In this document: positions 9,345-12,911 of the stretch, one piece after another
How the letters are laid out: each line of letters begins with the position of its first letter
Numbering within the stretch: the stretch's first letter is position 1
Source of the DNA: Dehalococcoidia bacterium
GTDB taxonomy: Bacteria; Chloroflexota; Dehalococcoidia; Tepidiformales; Tepidiformaceae
Assembly (NCBI GenBank): GCA_007118095.1
Contig: SKSF01000221.1
Coordinates: forward strand, 1 to 37,191
Direction: 5' to 3'
DNA: 37,191 bases
Notes under the pieces: model-generated
What the model was told of the DNA's origin: nothing
The model's input: only the letters and a program-made list of their open reading frames with translations
The model's database searches: none
Made by a program: the position numbers and the translations under genes

Positions 9345-10049
9345 GTGACAGGAGAAGCCCCCGAACTGCAGGCGTTGCGCCAACAGATCGCAGAGTTGGA
9401 AGCGGAGCTGGCACAAAGGCGCACCGAGGTCGATGAGCTCCTGGAGCTGCTGCCGGTCGCGATGGTCGAAATCGAACTTGCGACACTCCGCGTCGTCTCG
9501 ATGAATCGTCTCGCCCGGATAGTTCTCGGCTACGACCCCGACGGTGAGCCCCCTGCGCTGACGACCAGCGACATCGTCACGCCCGAGGAGTTCAGCCGCT
9601 TGCTCGCGGTCACCATGGAAACGCAGCAAAAGGGACTCCAGCCGGATGGGACCTACCGGCGCACCGGCGAACAAGAAATCTTCGAGACAGTGGGCGTGCG
9701 TCGTGATGGCTCCCGGTTTCCTGTCGAATTCCAGCCTGTCTTCGTGCTCAATGATGAGCAGGTGCCGGTTGCGTCACGGCTGATTTTTCGTGATATCAGC
9801 ACGCGCAAGGCGGCGGAGGCTGAACGGGAGCAGCTGGTTGCGGAGCTCCGGGAAGCGCTCTCGAACGTGCGCAAACTCGAGGGACTCTTGCCCATCTGCG
9901 CGTGGTGCAAGAAAGTGCGCGACGACGGCGGATACTGGAGCGAGCTGGAGGCCTATGTCGACGCCCACAGCGACGCCCGCTTCAGCCACGGGATCTGCCC
10001 GTCCTGTGCCCGGCAGTTCGAAGAAGAGTACACCGGGACTGAGCACTGA
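9345..10049 (+). CDS. PAS-domain protein with C-terminal CxxC...CxxC motif
   Basis: A soluble sensor-like protein of 234 residues. Residues 4-32 are a heptad-like coiled coil (LQALRQQIAELEAEL). A PAS domain spans about 35-155, ending in the PAC-like stretch RLIFRDISTRKAAE, and a second short helix follows. The C-terminal block has CAWCKKVRDDGGYW (Cys185, Cys188) and FSHGICPSC (Cys218, Cys221), a module seen at the ends of many bacterial PAS proteins and probably metal-binding. There is no kinase, GGDEF or other output domain. GTG 9345 is chosen for AGGG 7 bases upstream; TTG 9246 or GTG 9339 are alternatives. The ligand is unknown. Confidence 0.82.
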   Translation: MTGEAPELQALRQQIAELEAELAQRRTEVDELLELLPVAMVEIELATLRVVSMNRLARIVLGYDPDGEPPALTTSDIVTPEEFSRLLAVTMETQQKGLQPDGTYRRTGEQEIFETVGVRRDGSRFPVEFQPVFVLNDEQVPVASRLIFRDISTRKAAEAEREQLVAELREALSNVRKLEGLLPICAWCKKVRDDGGYWSELEAYVDAHSDARFSHGICPSCARQFEEEYTGTEH

Positions 10050-10074: not shown

Positions 10075-10172
10075 GGGAGTGGATGGGGCCCGGTGGCCCC
10101 CGCCGTCTTCAAAACGGTTGCCCCGCCGCCTGCGCGGCGGGGGGTGGGTTCGACTCCCATGCACTCCCGCCA
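10075..10172 (+). tRNA. selC: tRNA-Sec (anticodon TCA), selenocysteine
   Basis: A 98-nt tRNA with every tRNA-Sec hallmark. The acceptor GGGAGTG pairs with CACTCCC, followed by G73 and an encoded CCA. The anticodon loop CTTCAAA gives UCA, reading UGA. A long variable arm has CCCCGCCG paired with CGGCGGGG. The T loop is TTCGACT, as in E. coli selC. It delivers selenocysteine to UGA through SelB and a SECIS element. No selA, selB, selD or recognisable selenoprotein is in the window. It lies 25 bases after the PAS gene and 9 bases before the convergent DUF4342 stop. Confidence 0.97.
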
Positions 10173-11079: not shown

Positions 11080-11517
11080 ATGACAAAGGTGACCGTTGAG
11101 TCACTGCCGAACTACACCCACGCGCAGCTCCTCACCGCGCCGGGCATGTCGCTCGTCGCAGACGAACCGGCAGGCCAGGAAGGCGACGACCTGGGGCCAA
11201 CGCCGTACGACCTCCTCACGTGGTCGCTCGGTGCGTGCACCGCGATGACGCTACAAATGTACGCGCGCCGGCGCGGCTACGCGCTCGAACACGTCTCGGT
11301 GGACGTCGAGCACGAGCGCATCCACGCAAAGGACTGCGCCGAGTGCGAGCAGCCACGAGAGGGCCGCATCGAGGTATTCCGCAGGCACATCACGGTGAGC
11401 GGCAACCTTTCGGACGAGGAGCGCGCCGACCTGCTCCGGGTGGCGGCACGGTGCCCCGTGCACAAAACCCTCTCGAACGCGCCCGAGATCCTCGACACGA
11501 TCGACGTCGCGGGCTAA
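11080..11517 (+). CDS. OsmC/YhfA-family protein
   Basis: A probable thiol-dependent (hydro)peroxide-handling protein of 145 residues. The two redox cysteines of the OsmC fold are Cys53 (SLGACTAMTLQMYA) and Cys125 (AARCPVHKTLSN). An extra pair, Cys86 and Cys89 (HAKDCAECEQ), sits in the central loop, as in the YhfA-like subgroup. A strong AGGAGG lies 9 bases before ATG 11080. Its TAA overlaps the stop codon of the convergent terminase gene. Confidence 0.92.
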   Translation: MTKVTVESLPNYTHAQLLTAPGMSLVADEPAGQEGDDLGPTPYDLLTWSLGACTAMTLQMYARRRGYALEHVSVDVEHERIHAKDCAECEQPREGRIEVFRRHITVSGNLSDEERADLLRVAARCPVHKTLSNAPEILDTIDVAG

Positions 11518-12911
11518 CGAGTGCGGCCGGCAGCGACGCGCTTCGGCCCGGCTGCGCCAAGCGCCCGGGCGCACAGCGCGAGCGCCACAACATGGTCGTC
11601 ACTGCCGCGGTCGTCGCCCCAGCGGAAGCCGCCGCCCGAGCGCCAGGCCCGGCAGGACCGCAGCTCGGCGACGCACTGCCGGTAGGCGGGCGAACCATCG
11701 TCGCCGTGGAGCCGCAGGCGGCCGGTTTCGGCCGCGGCGACCAGTCCGTAGCCAAGGTCGGCCTTCATCGCAGGGGTGAAGGTGACGCGGTCGATGGGCG
11801 TCGTGACCCGCCGCTGTAGCGCATCGACCAGCGGTCCGCCCAGGCCGGTGCCGTCAGCGCAGACCATCGCTGGCCGCCAACGCTGGAGCACCGCGGCAAT
11901 CTCTTCGATGACTGTCTCGTACGGTGCGCCCGTGGTGGCTTCGACCCGCACGACCTCGGCCGTTTCGCCGGCGACCCGCGCTATCACGAGGACGGTGGCG
12001 TCGGCCCCGGCGCCATCACCGCCGAAGTCGAGCCCGGCGACGTACCGCTCACCGCGCACGGGGGCGGTCAGGGGTTCATGGTCTGCCAGGACGCGCGCCA
12101 CCTGCGCGTCTGAGAGCAGCCGCCCGGCCGACTGCACCGTACGCAGTTCGTACTGCGTCACAAACAGCGGATGCTCCGCGCCGAGCCGGTCGCGCTCCTG
12201 CCGTACGTAGTCGCCATAGCCGGGCACCGACGCCGCGACATCCTGCCAGCTCACCTGGTGGTGGAAGCGCTGCGGGCCGCCCTGGCCGTCGCGGGCACGG
12301 TTCCGGGCTGCCGCGGTTTCGAGCAACGAGTCACCGGCCCAGGGCGTCCCGAACAGCACGGTGGGCGCGCCCGTCGAGGCAGCCATCGGCCGGAACTGCC
12401 GGTTGAACCAGTCCGCGTCGATGTTCTGCGCCTCGTCACCGATGAGCGCCAGCGACGCCGTGTGCCCGGCGACATGCGCGTGGGGCGACGCGCTCAGGAA
12501 GATGGCCCGCGCCCGCCCCACGGTCAGCACATTGTCCCGGCGGCCGACGCCCCGGCCAGCGGGCAACCCCTGCCGCTGCAGCGCCGCCGCTGTCCTGTCC
12601 AGGCTGATGGAGGCCTGCGGATAGAGCGTCGGCGCACAGACGATGACTGTCCCGCCACTGCGGGCGTGGTCGAGCAACAACCACGCGACCAGCGCCGCGG
12701 AGATTTCATTCTTTCCGGACTGCCGCGGAAACATCACGGTGAAGGTTTCGCCGGGGCACGTGGCGACCCCCCGCACGAGCGAACGCAACACGCGGAGCTG
12801 GTACCCCCTAAGATGTGGCCGCGCGCCGGTTTCCACACCTTCCATGCTCGGCAGCCAGCCGGCGGAGGCCCGAGCCATCGCTGGCGTCCGCACGACCGGT
12901 CCTGCCGCCAT
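11514..12911 (-). CDS. phage-type terminase large subunit (isolated)
   Basis: A 465-residue protein with both TerL domains. The ATPase has the Walker A-like RQSGKNE (63-69), Walker B LALIGDE (154-160, Asp159-Glu160) and the coupling motif LFGTP (187-191). The RNase H-like nuclease has Asp295 (AGLDFGGD), Asp353 (VCADGTGLGG) and Asp438/Asp439 (SDDHVVALAL). All catalytic positions are intact, so it does not look degraded. TerL normally packages phage DNA into proheads, but no portal, capsid or tail gene is nearby. Base composition resembles the neighbours. It may be a remnant, or domesticated. The start is uncertain (ATG 12911 has a weak ribosome site). Confidence 0.85.
   Translation of the reverse strand: MAAGPVVRTPAMARASAGWLPSMEGVETGARPHLRGYQLRVLRSLVRGVATCPGETFTVMFPRQSGKNEISAALVAWLLLDHARSGGTVIVCAPTLYPQASISLDRTAAALQRQGLPAGRGVGRRDNVLTVGRARAIFLSASPHAHVAGHTASLALIGDEAQNIDADWFNRQFRPMAASTGAPTVLFGTPWAGDSLLETAAARNRARDGQGGPQRFHHQVSWQDVAASVPGYGDYVRQERDRLGAEHPLFVTQYELRTVQSAGRLLSDAQVARVLADHEPLTAPVRGERYVAGLDFGGDGAGADATVLVIARVAGETAEVVRVEATTGAPYETVIEEIAAVLQRWRPAMVCADGTGLGGPLVDALQRRVTTPIDRVTFTPAMKADLGYGLVAAAETGRLRLHGDDGSPAYRQCVAELRSCRAWRSGGGFRWGDDRGSDDHVVALALCARALGAAGPKRVAAGRTR

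Follow-up and report, generated by a model that had tools for sequence, protein, structure and literature searches.

FdhA-centred selenoproteomes have been described in bacteria (PMC1794560). In the tRNA-Sec of E. coli, the pairs C7-G66, G49.U65 and C50-G64 are needed for recognition by SelB and for rejection of EF-Tu (PMC9976931), and tRNA-Sec variants with a 7/5 layout or with bulges are known, including that of Dehalogenimonas lykanthroporepellens in Chloroflexota (PMC5330540). Selenoproteins of the UGSC family are covered by NF041046 and PF24696 and by the GOS paper (PMC2398784). The selC gene presented here lies in a stretch of 37,191 nt, which we call the window, and its genome has been assembled into 227 contigs (3.23 Mb, 98% complete). 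It belongs to an already known type of system, found here in an uncultured relative within Chloroflexota. The CTP synthase encoded in the window is most similar to Chloroflexota records (67% identity to a Chloroflexota bacterium, followed by Thermoflexus, Anaerolineae and Dehalococcoidia), which gives good support for the phylum; the class is likely Dehalococcoidia. SelA, SelB, SelC and SelD, together with a Sec-containing SelD, are common to this genome and the FdhA-centred selenoproteomes; the differences are that no Sec-containing formate dehydrogenase was found here and that the other predicted selenoproteins are of the thiol-redox type. Judging from sequence, this selC is almost certainly functional, within a selenocysteine (Sec) system that would serve at least seven proteins. 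The features are listed in Table 1.

Table 1. Features of selC in the window (first six rows) and genes with an in-frame TGA on other contigs of the same genome (remaining rows)
Feature	Location	Strand	Detail	Basis
selC, tRNA-Sec gene	10075-10172	+	UCA anticodon; CCA encoded	ARAGORN; Rfam RF01852, 72.6 bits
Anticodon TCA	10109-10111	+	reads UGA	ARAGORN, position 35
G8 of acceptor stem	10082	+	faces G at 10161	D arm and T loop register; non-canonical in Rfam alignment
Acceptor pair 8, 3' partner	10161	+	G	same register
Long variable arm	10119-10143	+	stem of about 9 bp, by reading the sequence	Rfam alignment
Discriminator G73 and encoded CCA	10169-10172	+	G73 at 10169, CCA at 10170-10172	sequence
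selD	contig C48		one in-frame TGA, SCGG-U-ASK	
UGSC gene	C205:33086-33514		one TGA	NF041046 search
UGSC2 gene	C27:32410-32841		one TGA	NF041046 search
Peroxiredoxin (BCP/PrxQ-like)	C116		FTGGU	peroxiredoxin/CMD family searches, translation
ResA-like WAxxUGC thioredoxin-like protein	C214		WASWUGC	NF041054, 325 bits (cut-off 300)
SelL-related redox protein	C102		UMFC	peroxiredoxin/CMD family searches, translation
AhpD-like protein	C113		CEFU	peroxiredoxin/CMD family searches, translation

A tRNA-Sec gene had been predicted at this place from the sequence alone, and the two programs agree on it. ARAGORN calls tRNA-SeC with exactly the predicted coordinates, and the match of the Rfam covariance model (10075-10168, E 3.6e-13) reaches 72.6 bits, well above the gathering score of 47. 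This is the sole RF01852 match above the cut-off in the 3.23-Mb genome, the runner-up reaching 44.6 bits. The UCA anticodon, long variable arm and encoded CCA, on which the original prediction relied, are all seen in the sequence. The gene resembles RF01852 and E. coli selC in its 8/5 layout, UCA anticodon, D arm (a stem of 6 bp and a loop of 4 nt, the element recognized by SelA), long variable arm, G73 and G49.U65 of the T stem. Reading of the sequence gives an acceptor strand of 8 nt with seven Watson-Crick pairs and G.G as pair 8, followed by a 2-nt linker and the D stem; the anticodon loop is CTTCAAA and the 5-bp T stem has no bulge. The acceptor and T helix is composed of 8 + 5 layers, of which 12 of 13 are standard pairs and pair 8 is the exception. 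Compared with the 7/5 and bulged variants, the 13-bp helix is imperfect in both cases; in the present gene, however, both acceptor strands retain all 8 nucleotides, with one mismatch and none missing or bulged. A 9/4 reading was rejected: position 9 is unpaired with its T-stem-side base in some relatives, and the 5-bp T stem holds. The selC stretch folds more stably than its own shuffles (z -3.15), and its minimum-energy fold differs from the cloverleaf.

The register of pair 8 was set by the D arm and T loop. G.G was found in 28 of the 32 relatives, from many families of the class, or in 21 when the 25 distinct sequences are counted; two of the 32 have a standard pair. With respect to the E. 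coli pairs, G.G takes the place of C7-G66, the first antideterminant, while G49.U65 is kept and C50-G64 is changed to U-A. A control search of IMG/VR, using a pattern that leaves the acceptor unspecified, gave 16 distinct tRNA-Sec sequences. Fifteen of them have A-U, U-A or C-G as pair 8, and one has G.G. By numbers the contrast is strong, but related sequences are being compared and the control, taken from viral contigs, is biased. A tRNA-Sec with the same G.G is located on a viral-collection contig (L270, 10734-10830, minus strand), near the end of the stretch examined, where it may be a gene carried by a phage or may mark an integration site. Mismatches at the same pair were also found, by eye, in plasmid-borne tRNA-Sec-like sequences of Gemmatirosa (G.A) and Indioceanicola (A.C). 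Mismatches at this pair thus occur in two other phyla as well, and the feature is conserved in the group but not unique to it.

The G.G pair is probably a product of functionless drift, a 13-layer acceptor/T helix being able to tolerate one mismatch. The mismatches of Gemmatirosa and Indioceanicola and the 12-bp and bulged tRNA-Sec variants on record in other bacteria (PMC5330540) are consistent with this, whereas the identity of the mismatch in most relatives across many families, and the A-U, U-A or C-G pairs of nearly all IMG/VR sequences, argue against it. Drift competes here with selection for the mismatch and does not touch the identity of selC. Selection, with SelB and EF-Tu of this clade distinguishing tRNA-Sec by a rule unlike that of E. 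coli, is the rather unlikely case; if it holds, G.G would replace the C-G pair that aids recognition by SelB and rejection of EF-Tu in E. coli. The conserved mismatch provides a natural test of the E. coli-derived rule for EF-Tu avoidance.

Inside the window, no sel gene besides selC was found, a codon-bias scan detected no selenoprotein or TGA-interrupted gene, and TGA serves as the stop of ordinary genes, such as the one ending at 10049, just as had been described for the neighborhood of selC. The genome was searched for selA, selB and selD, as the original prediction proposed, and all three are present above curated cut-offs; neither this search nor the covariance score gave the outcome that would have refuted the prediction. 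selB (308 bits, cut-off 242) has a complete open frame of 614 aa, in which the C-terminal winged helix PF09107 is present, and selD (356 bits, cut-off 125) is also complete. selA (429.7 bits) was obtained in two pieces, an N-terminal one (model residues 2-325), cut off by the start of contig C68, and a C-terminal one (model residues 339-453) at the end of contig C209. Because the pieces sit on two contigs, we infer, rather than observe, that selA is intact and is a single gene interrupted by an assembly gap. Selenouridine synthase (ybbB) was found neither in this genome nor in the 36 relatives searched.

TGA-interrupted genes had been predicted elsewhere in the genome, and at least seven genes with an in-frame TGA at an active-site position, selD itself among them, were found there; few families were searched, and the list is a minimum. 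Gene callers that take TGA as a stop would miss or truncate at least seven proteins of this genome. The TGA position of the peroxiredoxin, WAxxUGC, SelL-related and AhpD-like genes is kept in the orthologues of relatives. UGSC2 and the SelL-related and AhpD-like proteins score below some of the curated NCBIfam cut-offs and above those of Pfam. The two UGSC genes have the same TGA-encoded UGSC motif as the known family and do not differ from it in kind. The UGSC matches listed come from 33 of the 61 genomes, and each contains exactly one TGA. This family was met first when codon bias was scanned around the clustered sel genes of a relative (G017), whose SelD has Cys. A BLAST search with TGA-flanking sequences of neighbouring loci gave selD in 29-30 loci; the remainder, mostly antisense and out-of-frame noise, was set aside. 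UGSC2 is followed by a gene of 365 aa (L212:7839-8936), which has no Pfam or NCBIfam match and is possibly a partner of UGSC; in G017, too, UGSC has a similar gene after it. In G057 (L216, contig C108 and other contigs), 12 UGSC-family matches with one TGA each were found, an expansion of this selenoprotein family.

Downstream of the UGA of UGSC, a hairpin (CGUGS-AGUGU-SCACG), the best supported of the UGA-proximal ones, begins 13 nt 3' of the codon, and in 19 sequences 98.9% of its cells are paired. The inner pair is changed from C-G to G-C, on both sides, in 5 of the 19; the change replaces Cys TGC with Trp TGG on one side and is synonymous (Val GTG to GTC) on the other. Since this inner pair shows a compensatory change, there is good evidence, though from one pair, that the hairpin would be formed as an RNA structure. 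The UGA-proximal stretches of the peroxiredoxin (z -4.3) and SelL-related (z -4.7) genes are clearly more stable than shuffles, and the remaining five (z -1.8 to -0.1) do not clearly stand out from them.

One expectation, that of a TGA-containing formate dehydrogenase, failed. The genome has two PF00384 genes, an FdhF/YdeP-like one with Cys and a NuoG-like one, both free of TGA, and no Sec-containing molybdopterin oxidoreductase was found in it. Among the matches listed, no TGA was found in molybdopterin oxidoreductases of the same family, and TGA-bearing ones occur in more distant families.

The patchiness of selenocysteine use, noted in the original prediction for bacteria at large, was seen on a much finer scale. 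tRNA-Sec was found in 42 and selD in 44 of the 61 genomes, and the two are jointly present or absent in 57. All six genomes of the sister genus g13 are devoid of tRNA-Sec, selD and UGSC, and of the two genomes of genus g16 one has the trait and the other does not; the Sec trait is therefore patchy even inside one family. Three genomes (G018 and G023 of genus g18, and G007) have tRNA-Sec and Sec-SelD with 0 UGSC matches. G007 carries a TGA-bearing peroxiredoxin and a WAxxUGC-type gene, and for G018 and G023 the search for selenoproteins beyond UGSC covered molybdopterin oxidoreductases only.

In the proposed mechanism, SerRS would serylate the selC transcript through G73 and the long variable arm, and SelA would convert Ser-tRNA to Sec-tRNA using selenophosphate from SelD, which is itself a predicted selenoprotein in this genome. 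SelB would then bring Sec-tRNA to a UGA followed by a downstream in-frame bSECIS hairpin, and Sec would replace the active-site Cys in enzymes mostly of the thiol-redox type. The genes, their in-frame TGAs, the conservation in relatives and the UGSC hairpin with its compensatory change can be read from the DNA itself; expression, charging of the tRNA and actual insertion of Sec at the UGAs are what we infer. SelD and selenoproteins of the thiol-redox type apparently keep the system going, in a Chloroflexota lineage of which a sister genus lacks the trait.

It is very improbable that the gene is instead a relic, or a tRNA resembling selC but without a role in Sec insertion (selC* tRNA-Cys or an allo-tRNA), with the UGAs being plain stops. 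Look-alikes of selC do exist (PMC7609411) and the G.G at pair 8 would suit one, but the 8/5 layout, 6-bp D stem, G73 and UCA are all there, the genome holds selA, selB and selD, the TGAs of seven genes are at active-site positions conserved in relatives, and g13 has lost selC along with selD and UGSC. As for selC* tRNA-Cys in particular, its 8/4 layout with a T-stem bulge is absent, and the unbulged 5-bp T stem goes together with the sel gene set. That SelD is the sole selenoprotein, the system being self-sustaining or feeding selenouridine synthesis, is a state known in several YbbB-containing species (PMC1794560), but it is the least likely explanation here, being refuted at the sequence level by six other TGA-containing genes and opposed by the absence of ybbB from the genomes searched.

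Apart from the functional Sec system favoured here, several observations were made on the surroundings of sel genes. A lone gene resembling the terminase large subunit (PF17289; PHROG terminase) is located at 11514-12911 on the minus strand of the window, 1.3 kb from selC. Relatives of it with 54-57% identity are found near selC also in G001, G018 and G023, and no other phage genes were noted near these selC-adjacent genes. A TGA-containing terminase frame beside selC in G018 and G023 was judged to be an ordinary gene end. The sel genes, scattered in the window's genome, are clustered in G017, where a segment of about 5 kb on contig C4 (L158/L162) holds selA, selC, the Cys form of selD and a UGSC gene. 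On contig C68 of G055 (L168), which also holds selD and a selB-like frame, two tRNA-Sec genes that are not identical lie 4.5 kb from each other.
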